Positions 767 to 19,489 of a stretch of 46,164 bases of DNA are shown piece by piece. Positions within the stretch are counted from its first letter, which is position 1. The number at the start of each line of letters is the position of its first letter. This DNA comes from a virus. The DNA lies in the IMG/VR virus record IMGVR_UViG_3300025816_000021, positions 1 to 46,164 of that record; one strand, written 5' to 3'. The notes beneath the pieces were generated by a model. That model made no database searches. It was not told the origin of the DNA and worked only from the letters and a program-made list of their open reading frames with translations. A program made the translations under genes and the position numbers.

Positions 767-3700
767 ATGAGTAAACTTTCAGATTGGTTAGTCTATCCTA
801 TTATAGAAGAAGATATAACTAAAAATCCTAAGATAAAAAAAGCGTTAAAAAGATTAATTGATAAGAATCTTTTACCTAAATCTTATGCTGTTAATATCGA
901 TAAACTTCAAAGTTTTTTAAACACAAACCCACAGGTATTTACTTCGTTACTAAAACTATTAGGTGAGAGTGATTACACATTCGGTCCTGATTGGATACCT
1001 ACATCTCTTGGTCAACGTAAGAAGATGAAGAAACTACATAATAAACCTAATCGTAGTATCAGAGGTGAGGCTAAAGGAGATGTTGTTGTAGTTTATTCAG
1101 GTAGATTTCAACCTTTTCATTTAGGTCACTACTCAACATATAAGAAGTTAGTACAGAAATTTGGGAAAGACAAGGTTTTTATTGGAACAAGTAATAAAAC
1201 ACAATCAGGACGTAGTCCATTAAATTTTAAAGAAAAAAAATCTATTATTACAAAGTTTTTTAGTATATCACCTAAGATGATTGTACAAGTTCGTAATCCA
1301 TATTCTCCTGTTGAGATACTAAAAGATTTTCCTAAAGACACTACATATGTAGCCGCAGTAGGAGAAAAAGATTCAAAAAGATTAAAAGGTAAATATTTTA
1401 AACCTTATAAGAAAGGACAATTTGTTCCTTATGAAGAAGGTGGATTTGTTTTAGCGGTACCGCCAACTGATTTTAAAATAGGCGGTGAGCCTGTAAGTGG
1501 AACTAAAGTACGAGCAACTTTCGGCGGGTCTGTAAATATGTCGGCTAAAGAAGAGTTATTCAAACGAATGTATAAAAAAGTTGACAAAAAGATATTACAA
1601 TTTTTAATTAGAAAGTTTGGAGGCACACTATCTGAAGCTACTACAACAACACAGGGAAATCTTGATGATGGCCCACCAACATATTATGCAAGTTATTCTG
1701 ATTATAGAAAGTATTCTACTGCATGGTTGTTGGACCTTTATGGTGAAGATTGGAAAGTATTAGACCATTTAGTGTATTCAGAGTTTGACCCGTTAGAAGA
1801 TTATACTTTAAAATACAATACGGTACCTGCTGTATCATATTTAGATGCTGGTACAATTAAAGGTTCTAAAGATGCTGTTAAAAAATATAAAAAATTTATA
1901 CAAAACATTACAGATGATTTTGGGTGGGATGTGATTAAATGGTTAGGTGTAGATGCTGCAGAAAAAAGTTTAACAGGAACGGTGTTGTCTGCAGGAGTCG
2001 GGAAAGATTTAACTGACCAACACGATTTAAAAGAAAATGTAAAAGAAATAGCAGTTCGACCTAAGCCTAAAAAATTTAGAGATATTTATGATGCTCTTCC
2101 AATTGATTTAAAGAAAAGAGTTATGAATCTTAAAAACTATGACCAAAGAAGAGACGCTCATCCTGAAGGTAATGTTTTAAAACATACTATAGCTGTAACT
2201 AACAGAGCATTGAAAACAGGCGATATTGATTTTGCGTTGTCTGCATTATTTCACGATATAGGAAAAGATTCTACTGCTAAACTACATCCTAAAAAAGGTT
2301 TTTGGACTCATTATGGACACGAGAAAGTTTCAGCTGTTTTAGTAAAAAAATATGCTACTTGGATAAAATCAATGGGTGGTGATGTTGATACTATTCATTA
2401 TATAGTTAAACAACATATGAGAATGAAAGTCTTTGATAAGATGAAATGGACTAAACAAGATAAGATGAGTAAAGAAAAACATTTTGGTAAGCTACAAAAA
2501 TTTACTAAATTTGATAAGGGTGGTAGAGGAATAAATGATAGTGAACTAAAAGAAAATGTATTTTCAGGAAACAAACAACTATTTATAGAAGATAAAGAGT
2601 TACTTTTAATGGGCGGTGCTTACGGACATCTTGCACACCCTTTCGATGATAATAGGTTAACGTTTAGAGATTTGAAAACAATGATAGATTTAGCACTTCA
2701 AGGCAAACTTGAAAGTGTTTCAGAAAAGACAGATGGTCAAAATCTTATGATTTCATTTATTAATGGAAAAGTAAGAGCGGCGAGAAACAAAGGTCAATTA
2801 AAGAACTTTGGTCAAAACTCTCTTGATATTAAAGGCATACAAAATATGTTTTCAGGTAGAGGCGAAATTGAAAAAGCCTTTACATATTCTATGAAAGATT
2901 TAGAGATGGCTATCAAGAAGTTAGGTAAGAAGGATTTAGATTCAATATTTGGTAATGGAAAATCTTTTATGAGTTTAGAAGTAATGTATGTACCTACTAC
3001 AAATGTTATTCCTTATGGAATAAACTTATTAGTATTTCATGGTACTATGACTTACAATGAAAAAGGTGAAGCTATAGGACAGAGTAAATCAGCAGGTTCA
3101 AAGTTAACAAAGTTAATTAAGAAAGTCAACGGAAATGTTCAAAAACATTTTGATATACAAGCACTGCCTAATACTAAACTGCCTAAAGTTAAAGACTATC
3201 AAGCTAAAAAATCTACATTTTTAAATAGAGTGAATAAATTACAGAAACAATATGGTCTTGCAGATACAGATACCGCAGGTGATTATCATCAACATTTTTG
3301 GTTAGAGTTTATTTTATCAGGAGCTAAATCATCTGATTACCCTAATCCTACAGATAACGTTTTGTATAGTTTGATGAAGAGATGGGCGTTCTTTGATAAA
3401 TCATATAAGATACCTACAATTAAAAAAGATTTAAAAGAATATCCTAAATTTTTACAATGGGTATTAGCTGTAGATAAACAAGACCAAACTAAGATATGGA
3501 AAAAGAATATTTCCGCATTTGAAAAAATATTTCTTGATTTAGGAGCAGAAATACTATCTAATATGGAAAACTTCTTATCTGCGAACCCAACACAAGCCGC
3601 AGTTACAATGAGAAAAGAGATTGCAAAAACAATAAAAAAAATACGTTCAAGTAATGATTTGAGAACTATAGATATGATGAAAGCACAACTTGATAAAGTT

Positions 3701-3835
3701 CAATCTATGGGTGGATTTAAAAAGTTAGTTCCTACAGAAGGAATTACTTTTATGTTCAAAGGCAAAGTTTACAAACTAACAGGTTTGTTTGCACCTATAA
3801 ATCAGATACTTGGAATGTTAAAGTATACGAGGTAA
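767..3835 (+). CDS. Three-domain enzyme: NMNAT-like nucleotidyltransferase + HD phosphohydrolase + ligase-like nucleotidyltransferase
   Basis: 1022 residues. Around 105-270 is a cytidylyltransferase-fold domain with GRFQPFHLGH at 112-121, the (H/T)xxH signature of NadM-like nicotinamide-nucleotide adenylyltransferases and related enzymes. Around 460-570 is an HD domain: H465, H473, the H496-D497 pair in FHDIGKD, then HYGHEK. From about 640 there is a domain with EKTDGQ, the Lys-x-Asp-Gly of covalent nucleotidyltransferases (DNA/RNA ligases, capping enzymes). K654 is the probable adenylated lysine. It is followed by ARNKG and by SLEVMY (E738), which fit later ligase motifs. From families, domain one would make NAD or another dinucleotide, domain two would hydrolyse a phosphate ester, and domain three would transfer AMP to an RNA or DNA end. 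A combined RNA-repair/NAD role is inference. No frameshift is seen across the 3 kb. Confidence 0.85.
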   Translation: MSKLSDWLVYPIIEEDITKNPKIKKALKRLIDKNLLPKSYAVNIDKLQSFLNTNPQVFTSLLKLLGESDYTFGPDWIPTSLGQRKKMKKLHNKPNRSIRGEAKGDVVVVYSGRFQPFHLGHYSTYKKLVQKFGKDKVFIGTSNKTQSGRSPLNFKEKKSIITKFFSISPKMIVQVRNPYSPVEILKDFPKDTTYVAAVGEKDSKRLKGKYFKPYKKGQFVPYEEGGFVLAVPPTDFKIGGEPVSGTKVRATFGGSVNMSAKEELFKRMYKKVDKKILQFLIRKFGGTLSEATTTTQGNLDDGPPTYYASYSDYRKYSTAWLLDLYGEDWKVLDHLVYSEFDPLEDYTLKYNTVPAVSYLDAGTIKGSKDAVKKYKKFIQNITDDFGWDVIKWLGVDAAEKSLTGTVLSAGVGKDLTDQHDLKENVKEIAVRPKPKKFRDIYDALPIDLKKRVMNLKNYDQRRDAHPEGNVLKHTIAVTNRALKTGDIDFALSALFHDIGKDSTAKLHPKKGFWTHYGHEKVSAVLVKKYATWIKSMGGDVDTIHYIVKQHMRMKVFDKMKWTKQDKMSKEKHFGKLQKFTKFDKGGRGINDSELKENVFSGNKQLFIEDKELLLMGGAYGHLAHPFDDNRLTFRDLKTMIDLALQGKLESVSEKTDGQNLMISFINGKVRAARNKGQLKNFGQNSLDIKGIQNMFSGRGEIEKAFTYSMKDLEMAIKKLGKKDLDSIFGNGKSFMSLEVMYVPTTNVIPYGINLLVFHGTMTYNEKGEAIGQSKSAGSKLTKLIKKVNGNVQKHFDIQALPNTKLPKVKDYQAKKSTFLNRVNKLQKQYGLADTDTAGDYHQHFWLEFILSGAKSSDYPNPTDNVLYSLMKRWAFFDKSYKIPTIKKDLKEYPKFLQWVLAVDKQDQTKIWKKNISAFEKIFLDLGAEILSNMENFLSANPTQAAVTMRKEIAKTIKKIRSSNDLRTIDMMKAQLDKVQSMGGFKKLVPTEGITFMFKGKVYKLTGLFAPINQILGMLKYTR

Positions 3836-4703: not shown

Positions 4704-5110
4704 GATTCAGTATGAAAATATTAAAATATTTCTTAATATCTTTTTTTGTAATGGGTGCTCTAAAAGGCCAAGAGATAAAGAAAGATGGGAAAGTAGTCAC
4801 TACTTTTACACAAGAACAAGCATTAGAAATGTTAAAAGCACGTGATGCTCAATGGGAAAGTAAGTTAGCAAAAGCAGATTCATTGATAGAATCACAAAAA
4901 GTAGTAATTTCTGATTGTGAAGCAGTTGTTTCTAAGTTAGAAGAACAATCAAATTTAGATAGTTTGTTGTTACTTGCTCAGAGAAAACGAATTGATTTGC
5001 TAAAAGTTCGTGATGAAGCTAATGAAAGATTAGTAGAATTAGTTGAACCTAAATGGTACGAAAATCAGTATCTTTGGTTAGGAATAGGATTTATCTTAGG
5101 AAAGATTTAA
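4700..5110 (+). CDS. Exported coiled-coil protein with C-terminal hydrophobic segment (spanin-like topology)
   Basis: 136 residues. It begins with a signal-like stretch (residues 6-20, ILKYFLISFFVMGAL) followed by KGQ, a plausible signal-peptidase region with no lipobox cysteine. A long Glu/Lys/Ser heptad region covers about 38-110. The end, after PKWYENQ, is a short hydrophobic segment (YLWLGIGFILGKI) that could be a second membrane anchor. An exported coiled coil held at both ends resembles a unimolecular spanin, except that the lipid-attachment Cys is missing. A second in-frame ATG at 4712 would trim four residues and leave a cleaner signal peptide. The stop overlaps the terminase ATG by one base. 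Confidence 0.75.
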   Translation: MRFSMKILKYFLISFFVMGALKGQEIKKDGKVVTTFTQEQALEMLKARDAQWESKLAKADSLIESQKVVISDCEAVVSKLEEQSNLDSLLLLAQRKRIDLLKVRDEANERLVELVEPKWYENQYLWLGIGFILGKI

Positions 5111-6687
5111 TGCAATCTGAAGATTTAAAACAAGCACTACGACAAGAATATATTAAGTGTGGTGAAGACCCATCTTATTTTATACGAAAGTATTGTGTAA
5201 TCCAACATCCCATAAGAGGAAAGATACCATTTGAATTATATCCGTTTCAAGTAGACACACTCAAAGAAGTTTTAAATCATAAGTACAATATAATTTTAAA
5301 AGCAAGGCAGTTAGGTATTTCTACGTTAACTGCGGCGTATTCATTATGGTTAATGACATTTAGAAATGATAAAAACATTTTAGTATTAGCAACAAAACAA
5401 GATACTGCTAAAAACCTTGTTACGAAGATTAGAGTTATGCATTCTAATTTACCAGGGTGGTTAAGACAGACTTGTATCGAAGATAATAAATTATCATTAC
5501 GATATAAAAATGGTTCACAAGTAAAAGCAGTTTCAAGTAGTGAAGACTCAGGTCGTTCAGAAGCGTTATCTTTATTAGTATTAGATGAAGCCGCATTTAT
5601 AGACAAGATTGATACGATATGGGCTGCGGCTCAACAAACACTATCAACAGGTGGACAATGTATTGCTCTATCTACACCAAACGGTGTTGGAAATTGGTTT
5701 CATAGAACGTGGGTAGATGCAGAAGAAGGAGTAAATAGTTTTCACACTATAAAATTACATTGGACCGTACATCCTGAACGAGATAAAGCATATAGACTCG
5801 AACAAGATAAACTATTAGGTCCAGGTCTTGCCGCACAAGAATGTGATTGTGACTTTTTAACTTCAGGACAAATGGTTGTAGATGGTACTATTTTACAAGA
5901 GTATAAAGATAATCATTGTAAAGACCCTATGATGAAACAAGGTATAGATTCTAATGTGTGGATATGGGAATCTCCTGATTATACAAAAAACTATATAATG
6001 AGTGCTGATGTTAGTAGAGGTGATGGTAGTGATTATAGCGCATTTCATATATTAGAAGTTGAAAGTATGGAACAAGTTGCAGAGTATCGTGGTAAAATTA
6101 GTACTAAAGAATTTGGTAATTTATGTGTTAATGTAGCTACAGAATATAATGATGCATTATTAGTTGTTGAGAATAACAATATTGGATGGGCGTCTATTCA
6201 ACAAATTATAGATAGAAATTATCAAAATCTATTTTATTCATCACAAGATTTACAATACGTAGATGTAGAACATCAGTTGACAAATAGATATAGAGCGCAA
6301 GATAGAAATTTAAAGCCCGGGTTTTCAATGACAATGAAAACACGACCATTAGTTATTGCTAAGTTAGAAGAATATTTTAGAGAAAAGGCAGTAATTGTTC
6401 ATTCAAATAGATTAATAGATGAGTTGTTTGTATTTATATATAATAACAACAAGGCTCAAGCTATGTCCGGTTATAATGATGATTTGGTTATGAGTTATGG
6501 CATAGCGTTGTGGGTGAGAGATACTGCTTTAAGATTAAGAGCAGAAGGAATAGAACTGAGTAAAAAAACTCTTTCTAATTTTTCTAATCCTAATCAATTA
6601 ATGTACACTCCAGGAAGTAAAGATGATTCTTGGAAAATAGAAATCGGTCCAAATAAAGAGAACGAGGACCTTAAATGGTTATTGTAG
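5110..6687 (+). CDS. 17: Terminase large subunit (T4 gp17-like)
   Basis: The ATP-driven motor that packages DNA into the prohead and cuts the concatemer. I use the ATG at 5110 (TAATG overlap with the previous stop), giving 525 residues; the frame is open further upstream, but that part would overlap the preceding gene. The ATPase domain has an atypical Walker A, ARQLGIST at 65-72, Walker B LLVLDEAAF with D159-E160, and a coupling motif around STPNG. The C-terminal RNase H-like nuclease has ADVSRGDGSDYS (D300), VVENNN (E354) and YNDDLVMS (D457/D458), the expected acidic metal ligands. T4 gp17 is 610 residues, so this is a compact form. It is followed 9 nt later by the portal gene, the usual packaging pair. 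The GGAGTTAATT before the portal start is a good ribosome site. Confidence 0.97.
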   Translation: MQSEDLKQALRQEYIKCGEDPSYFIRKYCVIQHPIRGKIPFELYPFQVDTLKEVLNHKYNIILKARQLGISTLTAAYSLWLMTFRNDKNILVLATKQDTAKNLVTKIRVMHSNLPGWLRQTCIEDNKLSLRYKNGSQVKAVSSSEDSGRSEALSLLVLDEAAFIDKIDTIWAAAQQTLSTGGQCIALSTPNGVGNWFHRTWVDAEEGVNSFHTIKLHWTVHPERDKAYRLEQDKLLGPGLAAQECDCDFLTSGQMVVDGTILQEYKDNHCKDPMMKQGIDSNVWIWESPDYTKNYIMSADVSRGDGSDYSAFHILEVESMEQVAEYRGKISTKEFGNLCVNVATEYNDALLVVENNNIGWASIQQIIDRNYQNLFYSSQDLQYVDVEHQLTNRYRAQDRNLKPGFSMTMKTRPLVIAKLEEYFREKAVIVHSNRLIDELFVFIYNNNKAQAMSGYNDDLVMSYGIALWVRDTALRLRAEGIELSKKTLSNFSNPNQLMYTPGSKDDSWKIEIGPNKENEDLKWLL

Positions 6688-9831: not shown

Positions 9832-10184
9832 GTACATATAAAAAAATGATGAAAGAAGCTTTTGGTGTTGTTAAAGAAGGCAAGATTGAAGCACGTGAAT
9901 TAAAACTTTATATAGAAAACGATTCTGCTTTATATAGACAAAAATTTTTACCTATTATGAGAAATCTTAGTAATCATATGGCAAAAGACAGATATAAAGA
10001 TTCTCTTGCTGTAAAAGCTTTTATGTATTTAGTAGAAGCAGGTGCTAAGAAATATATTAAAGATTTCGGCGGAGACAGAAATACATTTTCTAAAAACGAT
10101 AAGAAAGAAGTTGCAAAAGAATTTGTTCAAGAATTTAAAGATGCGTACGACAACGAAGAGTACGATTTTATGGGAAGAAAATAA
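9828..10184 (+). CDS. Candidate internal head protein with T4-like capsid-targeting sequence
   Basis: 118 residues, GTG start at 9828 overlapping the previous TGA (GTGA). The first ten residues, MSTYKKMMKE, followed by A11 closely match the capsid-targeting sequence of T4 internal proteins, MKTYQEFIAE|A. Length, TY at 3-4 and Glu10|Ala11 all agree. In T4 this peptide carries the protein into the prohead and is removed by gp21. The mature part would be about 108 residues, charged and helical, with no recognised domain. The 1-nt overlap with the next gene and its position upstream of the protease support a head-core role. That it is packaged and perhaps injected is inference. Confidence 0.8.
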   Translation: MSTYKKMMKEAFGVVKEGKIEARELKLYIENDSALYRQKFLPIMRNLSNHMAKDRYKDSLAVKAFMYLVEAGAKKYIKDFGGDRNTFSKNDKKEVAKEFVQEFKDAYDNEEYDFMGRK

Positions 10185-10963
10185 TGAAAATTTTACAAAA
10201 TTATAAAAATCTTGTATCTGAATTATTTGAAGTAGATGATACAAAAATAATCAAGTATAAAGATAAAGATGGTGAAAATAAAGAGATGGCAGCAAAAAGT
10301 GCTAAAACTATGCCTGATGAACATCCTGCTAAACAAGCTTGGGATAAAGAAAAAGATAAAGAAGACGGCGGAGAAGAAGAAAAACCTTCAGGACAAAAAT
10401 TAAGCGGTAGTGACTTTGATAGAGATGGCGGTGATGATAAACCAAAAGAAAAAGATGATAGTGATTCTAAAGAAGCTCCGGAAGAAGAGCCTACGTTTCG
10501 TACTTTAAACAGCCAATTTAAATCAGATGAATTAGAAAAAGTGTCTTTTGATAGAAACGCTTCTGAAGAAGCTCAAGAGATGGAAATGGAAATTGCTGAT
10601 GAACTCCTCGCTCACTATAGTAAAGGTGGCGAAGACGAAGAAATGTTTGATGTGGTTACAGGTGAATCAGAAAGATTAGTTTCTATATATCAAAAAAACC
10701 GTAGAAAACCATCTAAAAGAAATTTGAAAGATTATCGTGACGAATTAATAAAAAGCATTGAAAATAGACGCGCTCAAAACCAAGGCAAGCCTATAGTTCA
10801 TCAAGGTGAAAAAACATCAGATAAAAAAAGTTCCGGTACAATGGGTTCAGTAGGTGTTAGAGAACCAGGACAAGCAGGTTCCGGTATGTACGATTCTGTA
10901 CAACCTAAAAACAAACCATTCTTAAAAGAACAATTAGAACGTATTGGCGGAGGAAAATACTAA
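10184..10963 (+). CDS. Acidic head-core protein A, paralogue of the next gene
   Basis: 259 residues, rich in Asp, Glu, Lys and Ser. It shares with the next gene an N-terminal block of about 90 residues (MKIL-x-NYK..., then EVDD, YKDKDGE, AKTMP, HPAKQ) and the C-terminus KPFLKEQLER-x-GGGKY, while the middle differs. The leader LVSELFE|VDD fits the T4-type prohead protease signal (LFE|V at 16/17). Acidic, low-complexity character and position between portal and protease match T4 gp67, an acidic core protein cut to small internal peptides. Probably part of the scaffolding core or an internal protein; no enzymatic motif is seen. TAATG links it to both neighbours. Confidence 0.83.
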   Translation: MKILQNYKNLVSELFEVDDTKIIKYKDKDGENKEMAAKSAKTMPDEHPAKQAWDKEKDKEDGGEEEKPSGQKLSGSDFDRDGGDDKPKEKDDSDSKEAPEEEPTFRTLNSQFKSDELEKVSFDRNASEEAQEMEMEIADELLAHYSKGGEDEEMFDVVTGESERLVSIYQKNRRKPSKRNLKDYRDELIKSIENRRAQNQGKPIVHQGEKTSDKKSSGTMGSVGVREPGQAGSGMYDSVQPKNKPFLKEQLERIGGGKY

Positions 10964-11937
10964 TGAAAATTTTAGAAAATTATAAAAAAATTGCTCAAGA
11001 ATTACTTCTCGAGGTAGACGATGAGAAAATGATTAGATATAAAGACAAAGACGGTGAGTCTAAAGAGATGAAGGCAGGTTCTGCTAAGACTATGCCAACA
11101 GACCATCCTGCTAAACAACAATGGGATAAGATGCAAGATAGTGGTGATGGTAGTGACGACAAAGAAGCTCCTTCAGATAAAAAAATAGGTAAAGGTGATT
11201 TTGATAGAGATAGCGGAGATAAACCAAAAGGTGATTCGTCTACTGCATCAGAAAAAAACGAATTAGAAGCAAAGTATGATATTAAAATACCTAATGGACC
11301 ACTTGATAAAGAAGATACAGAAGATGAATCTGCTTTGGACATAGCTGACGCAATAGCTAAAAAGTATGATATAAGTGCTGAATACGCTATGGAAAGAGCA
11401 AAAGAAGAAATAGGTAACTCAGAATCATATATAGAATTTGCTAAAACAATGGAAAATGATATAGAAGAAATGGCCGAAGAAGGCGGAGCTCAACCATACG
11501 ATGAACCAATGTTTGACGATGACGGAATGCGTAAGCTAAGAAACAAAGATTCGGACGATGATGACCATGGAGCTATGGAAAAAGAATATAATGTTAAAAT
11601 ACCTGGCGGAACAATGGAACCTGATGAGAATGATGAAGATGATAATGCTAAGGAAATAGCTGACGCATTAGCTAAAAAGTATGATATAAGTAGAGAATAC
11701 GCTATAGAAAGAGCAAACGAAGAAACAGATAGTAGTAATACATATTTAGAATTTGCTAAAAACTTAGAATTTGAGTTTCAAGAAATGGCAAATGAAGGTG
11801 GACACCAAAAATATGATGAACCAATGTTTGACGATGACGGAATGCGTAAGTTGAGGCATCAAGAAGAAAGCGTAAAACCTAAAAAGAAACCATTTCTAAA
11901 AGAACAATTAGAACGTTTTGGAGGAGGAAAATACTAA
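10963..11937 (+). CDS. Acidic head-core protein B with an internal tandem duplication
   Basis: 324 residues. It shares N- and C-terminal blocks with the preceding gene, so the two arose by duplication. Its middle is a tandem repeat of about 95 residues: 100-194 and 206-298. Each copy contains an ADA/ADALAKKYDIS helix, an EFAK segment and the block YDEPMFDDDGMRKLR, which is identical in both. The leader ends LLLE|VDD (17/18), a possible gp21 cleavage site. Acidic composition and location directly before the protease fit a prohead core protein. The repeated DEPMFDDDGMRKLR block might be an interaction motif; this is speculative. Confidence 0.85.
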   Translation: MKILENYKKIAQELLLEVDDEKMIRYKDKDGESKEMKAGSAKTMPTDHPAKQQWDKMQDSGDGSDDKEAPSDKKIGKGDFDRDSGDKPKGDSSTASEKNELEAKYDIKIPNGPLDKEDTEDESALDIADAIAKKYDISAEYAMERAKEEIGNSESYIEFAKTMENDIEEMAEEGGAQPYDEPMFDDDGMRKLRNKDSDDDDHGAMEKEYNVKIPGGTMEPDENDEDDNAKEIADALAKKYDISREYAIERANEETDSSNTYLEFAKNLEFEFQEMANEGGHQKYDEPMFDDDGMRKLRHQEESVKPKKKPFLKEQLERFGGGKY

Positions 11938-12542
11938 TGAAAAAATTACTCGTAGACTATATACCTTTTGAAGTTGCTCCTGAAGCACTCAATGAAGCAA
12001 TGTCTTCTAATGGTAAACTCATTGTAAAAGGTGTTTTACAAAGAGCAGAATCAAAAAATCAAAATGGAAGAGTTTATCCTTCAGAGTTACTACAACGTGA
12101 AGCAAAGAAGTATACTTCTAACTTTATAAAAGAAAAAAGAGCATTAGGTGAGTTAGACCATCCTGATAGTTCTGTTGTTAATCTTAACAACGTTTCACAT
12201 AATGTATTATCAATGGATTGGAATGGTAATGATTTAATGGGTACTATAGAAGTACTTACTACACCAAGTGGAAACATTTTAAGAGAATTATTCAAATCAG
12301 GTATTAGACTTGGTATATCTTCTCGTGGATTAGGTTCTGTTGAACCAATGAAAGAAGACAAAGATGCGCAAGAAGTTCAAAGTGACTTTGAATTAATAGC
12401 GTTTGATTTTGTCTCAAATCCGTCTACACATGGTGCTTTTATGAATCCGGTCAATGAAAGTGTTAACCGCGATGAACAAATACGTTCAGGTAAATGGACA
12501 GCTGTAGACAATACTATAGGACAGATTCTTAGAGGTGAATAA
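11937..12542 (+). CDS. 21: Prohead core protease (T4 gp21-like)
   Basis: 201 residues, close to the 212 of T4 gp21. This serine protease is part of the prohead core. After assembly it cuts scaffold, core and capsid proteins after Glu in (Leu/Ile)-x-Glu contexts. Visible signatures: VLQRAESKNQNGRVYP near 33-48, GELDHPDSS with catalytic-type H75, and LGISSRGLGS with S128/S129, the expected nucleophile region. An early ALNE|A at 20/21 could be its own maturation site. It sits between the candidate core proteins and the scaffold/capsid genes, in T4 order apart from inserted genes. The substrate set proposed for the neighbours depends on this protein. Confidence 0.95.
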   Translation: MKKLLVDYIPFEVAPEALNEAMSSNGKLIVKGVLQRAESKNQNGRVYPSELLQREAKKYTSNFIKEKRALGELDHPDSSVVNLNNVSHNVLSMDWNGNDLMGTIEVLTTPSGNILRELFKSGIRLGISSRGLGSVEPMKEDKDAQEVQSDFELIAFDFVSNPSTHGAFMNPVNESVNRDEQIRSGKWTAVDNTIGQILRGE

Positions 12543-13468
12543 TGCCTGATGCTACAGGAAAAACTACCTTTGGTAGAACTGATTATAAGACTCAAGGTGT
12601 AAACTTTTTTTCTGACGACCACGTTACAGGGTTTTCTCCTTTAATGCAACTCGGTCAGAGTAAAATCAACGGAGTCTTTAACGTTAATGATGATGGTGAA
12701 GTACAACCACCAACGTTTACCGCACCAACGTTAGGTCAATTAAATACCCCACCGTTACAAGAACTTGAACAAAAAACAGCATATAATGTTGGCATAGGCG
12801 CGGTAGATTTCTTTTCAGACGAACAAGGTATGCACGTAGGCTTTACAAAAAACCAACCTCAAGGATTGAGTCTTTATATTAGAGATGGAGGTTCGTCTAT
12901 TATATTTAATGGAGGCGGTGAATATAGTAGTTATGATGGCCCACAAATACCAAATGCGTTTGATGTACCAAATCAACCACTTGAACCTACAGAAAATTTA
13001 GAAGATAGGCAATCAGTTTATAATAATCCAGGCAACGCTAATGAAGATGTATTTGCTTCATCTGCTTTACCCGGACAAGTAAAGTCCGGAACGCCTAACT
13101 ACGATTCTTATAATGCCCCTCCTGAACCAATGTTAGATTTTTTTACACAAATAGGGAGTGTATATTCGTTAGGCGGAAGAACAGATAAAGAAATTCCGGA
13201 ACCGCCGGCACCACCAAACTTTGCTCAAATGGCATTTCAACATAATAGAGCAATGACTAATTCTCGAGGCGGGGGTATAGAATCTGTTCTTGTATCAAAC
13301 CCGAAAGGCAAAACGAACATAGCAGTTGGAATAGGGATTGAAGCTACAGGAGGCGGAGAACAAAATTTACAAGCATTATCAGAACCCGCAAATGTTGAGA
13401 GTACTTTAGATAGTGCATTAAATAACATTAACTCTAATTATAATAATAACATAAACGGAATTTTATAA
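12542..13468 (+). CDS. Gly/Pro/Asn-rich structural protein of unknown function
   Basis: 308 residues, low in Lys compared with its neighbours and rich in Gly, Pro, Asn, Gln and Phe. A short motif recurs: VNFFSDD near 20, VDFFSDEQG near 93 and LDFFTQIG near 200, suggesting a degenerate internal repeat. Long stretches (PPTFTAPTLGQLNTPP, PEPPAPPNFAQ) look disordered. The tail is Asn-rich. There is no leader with a Glu cleavage signal, no membrane helix and no known domain. It is coupled by TAATG to the protease and to the next head gene, so a virion or assembly role is likely by context. I do not recognise a family. Confidence 0.8.
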   Translation: MPDATGKTTFGRTDYKTQGVNFFSDDHVTGFSPLMQLGQSKINGVFNVNDDGEVQPPTFTAPTLGQLNTPPLQELEQKTAYNVGIGAVDFFSDEQGMHVGFTKNQPQGLSLYIRDGGSSIIFNGGGEYSSYDGPQIPNAFDVPNQPLEPTENLEDRQSVYNNPGNANEDVFASSALPGQVKSGTPNYDSYNAPPEPMLDFFTQIGSVYSLGGRTDKEIPEPPAPPNFAQMAFQHNRAMTNSRGGGIESVLVSNPKGKTNIAVGIGIEATGGGEQNLQALSEPANVESTLDSALNNINSNYNNNINGIL

Positions 13469-14805
13469 TGAGTAAACAAAAGTTAAATGAAAACCCAGCA
13501 GTAATAGCAACAGCAGCTCGTATGGCTATACAAAATGCAGATGGTAAGAAAGTATCTGTTAATACTGCTCGTCAAACTAACTATGCTTCAAAAGACCCTG
13601 CCGCTCATAAAAAAGCTAAAAGTATATTTCAAAGAATTAAAGATAAAATTAGTAAGAAAAAAGATAAACCTAAAAAGGATAAGCCGATGTCAAAGAAAGA
13701 TTCAGATTTTTATGCAAGACAATACGGCGGTAAAGTAGAAGCAATAAGCGCATTAATTGAAAAGAATGTTCCTACTGATGCAAGTAAGTGGTCTTATTAC
13801 AAAGGACAAGCAAAAAAGAAATTTGATGTTTATCCATCAGCTTACGCAAATGCATGGGCCGCTAAAAAATATAAAGCCGCAGGTGGTGGGTGGAAAAAAG
13901 AATCTGTTGAACTTGAAGAAGGCACTAAGATTCAAGTACAAGGACTCGGAATGTATGATGATAAAACTCTTAAAAAGAAAATCATACAATTATCAACTGA
14001 CTTACAAAAGAACGCTAAGAAAGGTGATTGGAGTAAAGCATCAGAAAACGGTATTAGAGCATTAGGTCGTATGTGGAAAGCATATCAAGATTGGTCAAGA
14101 AATAACGAATCCGTAAACGAAAATCTACTTAAACAAATTAAACAAGCAGAAAAGATAGCTAAATCAATGAGTGGTAATATGACAGGAGCTGTTAAAGCAA
14201 TTGAAAAGATTAAAAAAGGTTTATCTAAAGATAAGAAAGTAAGAAATGCTCTTAAATTAGCTAATGAATCTGTAAAAGAAAGTAAAACTTCTAATATGAT
14301 GAAAGCTATTCGTAAACATGGAACTGCAGGACCGTGGGATATTATTGTAAGTAAAAATAACAAGATAGTAAAACGAGTATCTGTACAAAATTTAAAAGAG
14401 ATACCAGCAGAGATGGCTGATGTAAAGAAAAAACATCCAAATCATAAAATTGGTATAGAAGCCAAAAGTGGCAAGATAGCTTATAAAGAACAAGTTTTAA
14501 ATGAAAGAATAAAAACTGCTTTTATGGTACACCCTGAAGACCCTGACAAAACAGAAAGACATTGGGTAAAAGTATTTAACGAACTTGCTCAAGGACATCC
14601 AAGTCCAATCGATTACGGCCCAAGAGAAACTCATATGTATGATTGGAACGACAGAAGAAATTATGAATTAGCAATAAGCGAGTATAACAAGATGATGAAT
14701 AAAATTGCTAATGGTCTTAACAAATCACTTGACCAAATGAATAACATTTGGAAAGAGTGGGATAAAATATATAAAAAGTATCTTAAAAAAGACGGGAGAA
14801 AATAA
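13468..14805 (+). CDS. Modular candidate internal head polyprotein
   Basis: 445 residues made of separate basic helical modules. One is at about 75-143, with FDVYPSAYANAWAAKKYK, a block common in marine phage proteins. A second covers about 153-212, a third about 220-265 (AVKAIEKIKKGLSKDKKVRNA), a fourth about 275-340 (GPWDIIVSKNNKIV...), and a last one about 347-445. The joints carry hydrophobic-x-Glu sites of gp21 type: LNE8 near the start, LEE151, VNE218, ANE267 and LNE346. The phrase ESV precedes or contains three of them. This suggests a precursor cut into several small internal proteins, which is inference. No catalytic motif is seen. Confidence 0.83.
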   Translation: MSKQKLNENPAVIATAARMAIQNADGKKVSVNTARQTNYASKDPAAHKKAKSIFQRIKDKISKKKDKPKKDKPMSKKDSDFYARQYGGKVEAISALIEKNVPTDASKWSYYKGQAKKKFDVYPSAYANAWAAKKYKAAGGGWKKESVELEEGTKIQVQGLGMYDDKTLKKKIIQLSTDLQKNAKKGDWSKASENGIRALGRMWKAYQDWSRNNESVNENLLKQIKQAEKIAKSMSGNMTGAVKAIEKIKKGLSKDKKVRNALKLANESVKESKTSNMMKAIRKHGTAGPWDIIVSKNNKIVKRVSVQNLKEIPAEMADVKKKHPNHKIGIEAKSGKIAYKEQVLNERIKTAFMVHPEDPDKTERHWVKVFNELAQGHPSPIDYGPRETHMYDWNDRRNYELAISEYNKMMNKIANGLNKSLDQMNNIWKEWDKIYKKYLKKDGRK

Positions 14806-17854: not shown

Positions 17855-19489
17855 ATGCCTAATTATGACAACATTAATGACTTAATGAGTGCTCAATCTC
17901 CGCAAGCTGAATTGTTGAAACACACAAGAAAGCTTACAGAGAAATGGGAACCAACAGGTCTACTTGATGGAATCAATGATGAAACTAAGAAAAGTAGTAT
18001 GTCCGTACTTCTTGAAAACCAGGCTTCACAGCTGGTTAAAGAAGCTTCACAGACATCTACTGGCTCACAAAAAGAAGAATGGTCAGGTGTGGCTCTTCCA
18101 TTGGTTCGTAGAATCTTTGGTGAATTAGCTGCTCAAGACTTCGTAAGCGTTCAGCCTATGAATCTTCCAAGTGGACTTATTTTCTATCTTGATTTCAAAT
18201 ACGGCTCCGGTAACGGGCTTGCTTCCACAGGTGGCGACATCTTTGGTAACACATCAGGTTCAGGCGACGCAAGTGGCGGACTTTATGGTGCAGGTAAATT
18301 CGGATACTCTATGAAAGAACTATCCCAAACCGTAGCACATACAGATGGTGCACAAACGCTAGCACAAGATAAATACATAACCGGTTCAGTAGACCAAGAA
18401 GATACTGATTTCGAACCTTCTTTATCAAGTTCTTTAAGTACTTTGATAAAAGTTAGTATTCGTAAACAGGATTTAGACAACGTTGATGTAGACGCTGTAA
18501 GGTCTTTTGAATTAGTAGGAGATAGTGTAACAACTCAGTATCCTGCTTATACAAAGTACGACGGTAATGATACTATTTCTTTCGTTATCGCTCCACCAGC
18601 AACATCCGGTGTATATGGTGCTCACGTAACATCATCTATTGCAGTTAAATTTTCAAAAGAAACTTCTGCTACAAGCAGAGGCGATTTTGAAGACCTCACC
18701 GCAAATGAACCAACACCAGATGACTTGAGTATACCTCAGGTAGACATCCAAATGAAATCAATTCCGATTGTCGCTAAGACACGTAAATTGAAAGCAGTTT
18801 GGACACCTGAATTAGCTCAAGACCTTAACGCTTATCATTCAGTTGATGCTGAAGCTGAGTTAACATCTATGCTTTCTGAGTACGTTTCTATGGAAATCGA
18901 TTTAGAAATCCTTGATATGTTAATGGCTAACGCTTCTGCTAAGACAGATAGATGGTCTGCTAAAGTTGGATTTGAATGGGATGGCGGAAACGTTTTCGCT
19001 GAATCTTCAGGTAACTCAAATGCTTACACTAAAGGCGAGTGGTTCCAAACACTTGGAAACAAAATACAAGCCGTTAGTAATGCTATTCATCAAAAAACAC
19101 TACGTGGTGGTGCTAACTTTATTGTTGTGTCTCCTGAGACAGCTACAATAATTGAGTCTATTCCAGGCTACGCTGCATCTACAAACGGTGATGCGATGAA
19201 TAACAAGTATGCAATGGGTGTACAACAAATGGGTGCATTAAATAACAGATATACGGTTTACAAGAACCCTTATATGTTAGAGAATCAGATACTATGTGGT
19301 TTCAGAGGAAGTAATTTCTTAGAAACAGGTGCTGTATATGCTCCATATATTCCGTTAATTATGACACCTCTTGTGTATGACCCGGTCAACTTTACTCCAC
19401 GTAAAGGTGTAATGACTCGTTATGCTAAGAAGATGGTTCGTCCTGAGTTCTACGGTAAAGTCATCGTTGCAGACGTTGATATGGTGTAA
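17855..19489 (+). CDS. 23: Major capsid protein (T4 gp23-like)
   Basis: 544 residues, close to T4 gp23 (521). HK97-fold capsomer protein made as a precursor. The probable maturation site is LVKE63|A64, matching the T4 cut at Glu65|Ala66. The following region, EEWSGVALPLVRRIFGELAAQDFVSVQPM, is the most typical signature of gp23 (T4 has PALVGLVRRAMPKLVAYDIAGVQPM). Other matches include KTRKLKAVWTPELAQDLNAYHSVDAEAEL, GANFIVVSPETATI and the end VRPEFYGKVIVADVDMV. SD AAGGGG lies before the ATG. It is followed by a strong terminator, consistent with very high expression of this unit. No gp24 vertex paralogue is seen in the window. Confidence 0.97.
   Translation: MPNYDNINDLMSAQSPQAELLKHTRKLTEKWEPTGLLDGINDETKKSSMSVLLENQASQLVKEASQTSTGSQKEEWSGVALPLVRRIFGELAAQDFVSVQPMNLPSGLIFYLDFKYGSGNGLASTGGDIFGNTSGSGDASGGLYGAGKFGYSMKELSQTVAHTDGAQTLAQDKYITGSVDQEDTDFEPSLSSSLSTLIKVSIRKQDLDNVDVDAVRSFELVGDSVTTQYPAYTKYDGNDTISFVIAPPATSGVYGAHVTSSIAVKFSKETSATSRGDFEDLTANEPTPDDLSIPQVDIQMKSIPIVAKTRKLKAVWTPELAQDLNAYHSVDAEAELTSMLSEYVSMEIDLEILDMLMANASAKTDRWSAKVGFEWDGGNVFAESSGNSNAYTKGEWFQTLGNKIQAVSNAIHQKTLRGGANFIVVSPETATIIESIPGYAASTNGDAMNNKYAMGVQQMGALNNRYTVYKNPYMLENQILCGFRGSNFLETGAVYAPYIPLIMTPLVYDPVNFTPRKGVMTRYAKKMVRPEFYGKVIVADVDMV

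Follow-up and report, generated by a model that had tools for sequence, protein, structure and literature searches.

In phage T4, tRNA repair relies on Rnl1 and Pnkp, separate enzymes that are made after infection. RNA ligases, kinases and phosphoesterases of phages are described as cooperating repair enzymes in a review of jumbo phages (PMC7824862), and a survey of phage NAD systems reported that every phage with NadM also has NadV (PMC9503650). Protein processing in the T4 head depends on gp21, which cuts after Glu and trims Alt at ITE-6 and LTE-619; T4 capsid-targeting peptides (CTS) span 10–20 aa and the gp23 propeptide 65 aa (PMC5694885). Polyvalent proteins, as described by Iyer et al. 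(2017, PMC5512222), are large phage polypeptides made of unrelated enzyme domains. Here we examine an ORF that combines features of these systems, and we conclude that it probably encodes a precursor polyprotein that a marine T4-like myovirus would package in its head and that a gp21-type protease would cut into injected RNA-repair enzymes.

The ORF occupies positions 767–3835 on the + strand of the window, that is, the whole 46,164-nt (46 kb) stretch of virus record IMGVR_UViG_3300025816_000021 that was analysed; it starts with ATG and encodes 1022 aa, and its parts and the terminase, protease and capsid genes described below lie on the same strand. The window corresponds to the structural module of a T4-like myovirus and carries genes for terminase, portal, a prohead protease of gp21 type, the major capsid protein and the tail sheath, and the ORF precedes the terminase large subunit (5053–6687; phrog_2, 1.2e-48), as a preliminary description had stated. 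Since dN/dS against close relatives (87–93% aa identity per domain) is low, at ~0.07–0.15 for the NMNAT, middle and ligase parts, we regard the ORF as real and constrained. IMG/VR encodes more than 590 relatives; most records are metagenomic fragments, and Microcystis phage Mel-JY01 is the one isolate found to carry the NMNAT–ligase pair.

The adenylyltransferase, HD phosphohydrolase and KTDG nucleotidyltransferase that the preliminary description had read from the letters are all present in the chain; it had missed an N-terminal helical part, a middle domain and protease-type linkers. The helical part (residues 16–101, positions 812–1069; helices at residues 21–64 in the AlphaFold2 model) contains a candidate site, LGE67↓S (arrows mark the presumed cut), and ends in a weak one, RGE101↓A, ahead of the NMNAT-type (HIGH) adenylyltransferase domain (residues 102–286, positions 1070–1624). 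This domain matches Pfam PF01467 (CTP_transf_like) at residues 109–167 (E 6e-6, above the curated cut-off) and the ORF matches PHROGs cytidyltransferase phrog_395; NadM/NMNAT matches in NCBIfam fall below cut-off. It carries GRFQPFHLGH at residues 112–121 and VSGTKVR at 243–249, and a Foldseek search with a model of residues 1–610 returned NadM (2qjt, 2r5w, 2qjo) and NadD first, so that the GRFQPFHxGH and SGTxxR motifs and the fold of an NMNAT or NadM enzyme occur together. Activity may nevertheless differ within the family, because FGPHH or FGLHH replaces HxGH in 27 of 73 distinct homologs. Pfam detected no Nudix domain in the chain.

The middle domain, which starts at DDGP (residues 291–423, positions 1637–2035), is conserved and is modelled with low confidence. 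It also occurs free-standing, as residues 288–433 match separate small ORFs in relatives; it thus moves as a module, with no recognised fold. The HD domain (residues 428–596, positions 2048–2554; H473, H496-D497) matches PF01966 at residues 470–555 (E 6.8e-7, above the curated Pfam cut-off), and its closest families, TIGR02692 in NCBIfam and phrog_2244 in PHROGs, represent the C-terminal part of tRNA nucleotidyltransferases. Two related loci (L018 and L044) encode PolyA_pol, PolyA_pol_RNAbd and then HD in one chain, a complete CCA-adding enzyme; in the 46-kb window the PolyA_pol head (PF01743) is absent and the HD domain stands without it.

Comparison of 77 loci revealed that these modules recur in varying orders and combinations, together with other RNA-repair enzymes. 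HD is missing in L007–L014, the other parts of which are 77–92% identical; it precedes NMNAT in many of L017–L033 and forms a gene of its own in many of L036–L071. In further relatives the set includes a P-loop kinase with similarity to polynucleotide kinase and a CCA-adding head, in keeping with the theme of RNA repair and counter-defence that had been proposed for the locus. This variation bears on the view that the product is a stable multidomain enzyme, in which one intracellular, unpackaged chain would pass substrates between domains for RNA repair and NAD supply, much like the single fused cycle of NAD synthesis, end trimming and ligation first envisaged. The fusion of the domains here, and the retention of NMNAT and ligase together in most relatives, Mel-JY01 included, are what such an enzyme would show. 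We nonetheless consider it unlikely: domain order varies, HD can be absent between flanks that are 77–92% identical or encoded separately, the ligase can be split, the gene sits among head genes and protease-type sites lie at the domain borders. Because prohead-protease-type sites separate its domains, the chain is probably not kept whole.

HD is 80–86% identical between otherwise distant loci. One explanation tried was that HD had spread recently as a mobile piece, and it was weakened by the substitution rates: HD dS is 1.2–1.4 versus 1.5 for its neighbours, and dN is low. As dS is nearly at the neighbours' level and dN low, strong constraint explains most of the HD identity.

Residues 606–1022 (positions 2582–3832) are covered by no Pfam, PHROG or NCBIfam model, and sequence-family profiles for Rnl1 and Rnl2 (Pfam RNA_ligase and others) matched 1 of 23 members, at E 0.11; a PDB sequence search with a profile of this part returned chance matches only. 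The region contains all motifs of the covalent nucleotidyltransferase superfamily, namely K654 in KxDG (motif I), R673 (Ia), E738 (III), F757 (IIIa), E991-G992 (IV) and K1003 (V), and K654-x-D-G and each of the other residues are invariant in an alignment of 34 diverse homologs (invariant columns E48 K49 D51 G52, A67 R68 N69, E133, F152, E386 G387 and K398 of alignment A2). It is accordingly a distant or new family of this superfamily, and the invariance of the motif-I lysine supports, at the level of sequence, the earlier proposal that K654 would be the nucleotidylated residue.

The AlphaFold2 model of this domain (pLDDT 87, pTM 0.83) points to an RNA-ligase-type fold. In VIA-align, covalent nucleotidyltransferases fill rows 1–44, and nearly all of the top 33 are RNA ligases; since the best Z values (T4 Rnl1 8.2, Naegleria ligase 8.1, fungal Trl1 7.6, T4 Rnl2 7.1), near 8 at 8–10% identity, are moderate, we base the fold call on this rank pattern and the motifs. 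The best Foldseek match was likewise T4 Rnl1 (9do4), with E-values above 0.01. Because the structures closest to it belong to ATP-dependent RNA ligases, an NAD-dependent ligase is unsupported; the preliminary description had named NAD as the adenylate donor, and NadV (NAPRTase, PF04095) gives this view no support either, as none was found in 11 long records including the window, records that may be incomplete. We take ATP as the probable donor and RNA as the probable substrate. Another covalent nucleotidyltransferase role (DNA nick sealing, RNA capping or protein AMPylation), or catalytic retirement, would fit the matches of DNA ligases and capping enzymes to the same model (Z 5–6) and an unusual helical insert of 200 residues that separates motif IIIa from motif IV. 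Its probability appears low, as RNA ligases lead by 2–3 Z units, all motifs are conserved with dN/dS of 0.08–0.11, and modules for a CCA-adding enzyme and a kinase accompany the ligase domain.

In one group of relatives the ligase is naturally divided at a position equivalent to residues ~665–669 (2759–2773 in the window), as judged from the relatives' ORFs and the ligase model. The break falls in the active-site hairpin, in the turn between strands 53–60 (after motif I) and 63–67 of the ligase model, and 31 ORFs show the division, all from loci within L034–L071 and from MAG contig L154. The N-piece, running through TEKLDGQNLMISW, forms the end of a small downstream ORF, and the C-piece lies in the upstream gene, beginning (LNE↓)GKLIAARNKG or (ITE↓)ATGGKLIAARNKG; L(L/I)xE↓GG or a similar sequence directly precedes every N-piece and LxE every C-piece. 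All eight records considered (up to 80.8 kb) have a single N-piece, a single C-piece and no intact ligase copy, and both pieces are under purifying selection (dN 0.02–0.18 versus dS 0.5–1.8). A frameshift or assembly error was rejected in view of complementary pieces in 8/8 contigs that are both under strong purifying selection, and so was a split intein, as the N-piece ORF stops right after the motif-I strand and contains no intein. Because each half would be freed by an LxE cut, the split ligase may become active only after head maturation. The wider proposal, that many marine T4-like phages carry a head-packaged RNA-repair kit diced by the prohead protease, and that in the one group the split ligase would serve as a proteolytic activity switch, is one that we advance tentatively, at a little under an even chance.

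Intein-like sequences were noticed in two other loci: an L072 kinase module (1068–1439) is apparently interrupted in its P-loop, where GGPG is followed by CFDENTLIKTETGYT, and the 484 kb uncultured phage LR756508 has an intein-like insertion (WCVSGDTRVLTNNGYIPIKKIY...VHNC) in an ORF (L156, 15615–17396).

The domain borders of the window protein carry motifs resembling gp21 sites. By analogy with the T4 CTS, residues 1–15 (positions 767–811) form a putative capsid-targeting sequence, MSKLSDWLVYPIIEE↓D, ending in IEE↓D; residues 1–14 have low pLDDT, and MDKLTEWLTKPFLEE↓D and MNKLTKELIKPFLTE↓D are its equivalents at the head of other polyproteins. Proteins of the window tend to fit this targeting-sequence form more often in the head than in the tail region (Fisher p 0.03–0.05 with two patterns and 0.19 with the strictest one); over all flanking ORFs of the loci, N-terminal enrichment gave no clear signal. 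Beyond E15 and E67, candidate prohead-protease sites are LSE290↓A (1628–1636), which lies in a low-pLDDT linker (289–309) and is matched by sites in homologs, LKE423↓N and VKE427↓I (2027–2047) and LKE596↓N (2546–2560). Every site except E67 is in or beside segments with pLDDT below 50. Three (L/I/V/M)xE motifs, at E200, E653 and E891, lie within domains, and A, G, S or N follows none of them.

The same placement was evident across the family. Among 80 dereplicated polyproteins, [LI]xE↓[AG] occurred 72 times in linkers versus 29.1 ± 5.1 in shuffled sequences, and 18 times in domains versus 31.3 ± 5.1; the linker z was 8.4, with control patterns at or below 2.3, and because relatedness of the sequences inflates z, we give more weight to site position. 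(L/I/V/M)xE precedes NMNAT in all 35 distinct contexts (10–14 aa before it in 32; 18.0 ± 2.8 when shuffled) and is found upstream of the middle domain in 30/30 distinct homologs, within 4 aa before the kinase in 9/9 and before the split ligase C-piece in 7/7. It thus marks most domain borders and stays before each module though the neighbouring module changes. In Mel-JY01, the NMNAT–ligase protein (WWT39297.1) shows LYKE↓G and IIAE↓GG ahead of its ligase part, and the phage also encodes a prohead protease. Within the window, (L/I/V/M)xE followed by A, G, S or N reaches 7.3 per 1000 aa in head-region proteins and 1.8 in tail proteins (~4x).

The genome also encodes the enzyme that we propose to act on these sites, a T4 gp21-type prohead protease (11937–12542; phrog_207, 2.2e-54) bearing LNE20↓A at its own N-terminus, together with a major capsid protein (17855–19489; phrog_138, 3.5e-73) whose propeptide ends LVKE63↓A. 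L[IV]xE↓[AS], presumed to be the capsid cleavage motif of this clade, is at the matching place in 41/41 distinct capsid-protein N-termini. The virus probably packs and injects ready-made pieces with which to repair RNA cleaved by the host, because the linkers resemble the cutting sites of its own head protease.

A 14-nt direct repeat, TAAAAGAAAATGTA, bounds HD (copies at 2028–2041 and 2547–2560), encodes LKENV and overlaps the candidate sites at E423, E427 and E596; in HD-less loci the LKEN/IKEN junction is single (L007, L008 and L010–L013) or reads LKESV (L009). The repeat would also serve recombination, and the motif 'ELLLEGGAYGH' could belong to the ligase fold, so (L/I/V/M)xE might be a structural or recombination footprint (domain starts or module-exchange repeats) in place of a protease site, which we find quite improbable given that it recurs in disordered linkers, at a fixed distance before unrelated folds while other residues vary, and is identical to the presumed capsid-cleavage motif of the clade. 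The protease-site and recombination roles can hold together.

Several neighbouring genes have similar features. Positions 13468–14805 encode another likely head-region polyprotein with LNE↓N, LEE↓G, VNE↓N and VKE↓S and no known domain, and the gene upstream of the ORF (80–760) has a terminal module, phrog_7595, after LKE↓A and MKE↓A ahead of another short module, so that its site logic looks alike. Adjacent paralogs at 10184–10963 and 10963–11937, which share an N-terminus (MKIL.NYK...ELxxE↓VDD) and a C-terminus (KPFLKEQLERxGGGKY), are probably packaged or scaffold proteins. In another locus, the polyprotein L045:2020–5691 has stretches that resemble, by eye, Alt-like ADP-ribosyltransferase and Ntn-hydrolase, and that match no Pfam or PHROG family.

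In the mechanism we propose for the packaged precursor, the N-terminus would direct the polyprotein to the prohead core, where it would co-assemble with the core, and the genome's own gp21-type protease would cleave the linkers after (L/I/V/M)xE. This would release the NMNAT-type adenylyltransferase, the middle domain, a CCA-enzyme-type HD phosphohydrolase and the RNA-ligase-type nucleotidyltransferase, which would enter with the injected DNA and act at once. HD may trim cyclic or 3'-phosphate ends of RNA, and the ligase may self-adenylate at K654 with ATP and re-join cut (t)RNA. The NMNAT-type domain could make or restore a dinucleotide, for example NAD, and this role is the least certain step because NadV, reported to accompany NadM in every phage that has it (PMC9503650), was not seen in the 11 records. 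If this is true, phages can deliver RNA repair at time zero, ahead of any gene expression, a point of relevance to defences based on early tRNA cleavage. The findings also indicate that a large ligase family has gone unannotated and that a nucleotidyltransferase can be split naturally, and (L/I/V/M)xE borders could serve as a rule when T4-like phages are searched for other injected effectors. The literature searched, with partial coverage, yielded no report of gp21-diced enzyme polyproteins or of a split phage RNA ligase.

Set against known systems, the ligase-type domain shares fold and motifs with the tRNA-repair ligase Rnl1 of T4, and relatives add a polynucleotide-kinase-like kinase reminiscent of Pnkp; in contrast, the enzymes here are fused, HD stands in place of the Pnkp phosphatase and membership of the Rnl1 sequence family is undetectable. 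The NMNAT-type domain has the motifs and fold of NadM, yet it has no fused Nudix domain, NadV was not found in the 11 records and part of the family carries FGPHH. HD is closest to that of bacterial CCA-adding enzymes, of which the window has HD only, whereas head, RNA-binding part and HD are complete in L018 and L044. Like polyvalent proteins, the ORF product combines a number of dissimilar domains in a single chain, and its gene lies close to head genes; for those proteins too, packaging, injection and cleavage into units have been predicted. Their cleavage is attributed to zincin or assemblin-like peptidases within the chain, an embedded peptidase being common but not universal, and in the part of that account consulted no NMNAT or CCA/HD–ligase set was found described (PMC5512222). 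The ORF 767–3835 chain has no peptidase family match in Pfam or NCBIfam and, unlike polyvalent proteins, carries sites for the separate gp21-type protease of the phage, a pairing of protease and matching sites as in gp21-processed head proteins. The gp21 substrates IPI–III and Alt of T4 begin with a targeting peptide whose end is (L/I)xE, a form that the putative targeting sequence of the ORF would fit, and Alt has a cut at either end (ITE and LTE; PMC5694885); these internal proteins are single effectors, whereas the ORF strings several enzymes together with sites between them. The proposed packaged kit is best read as a variant of both polyvalent and T4 internal proteins.
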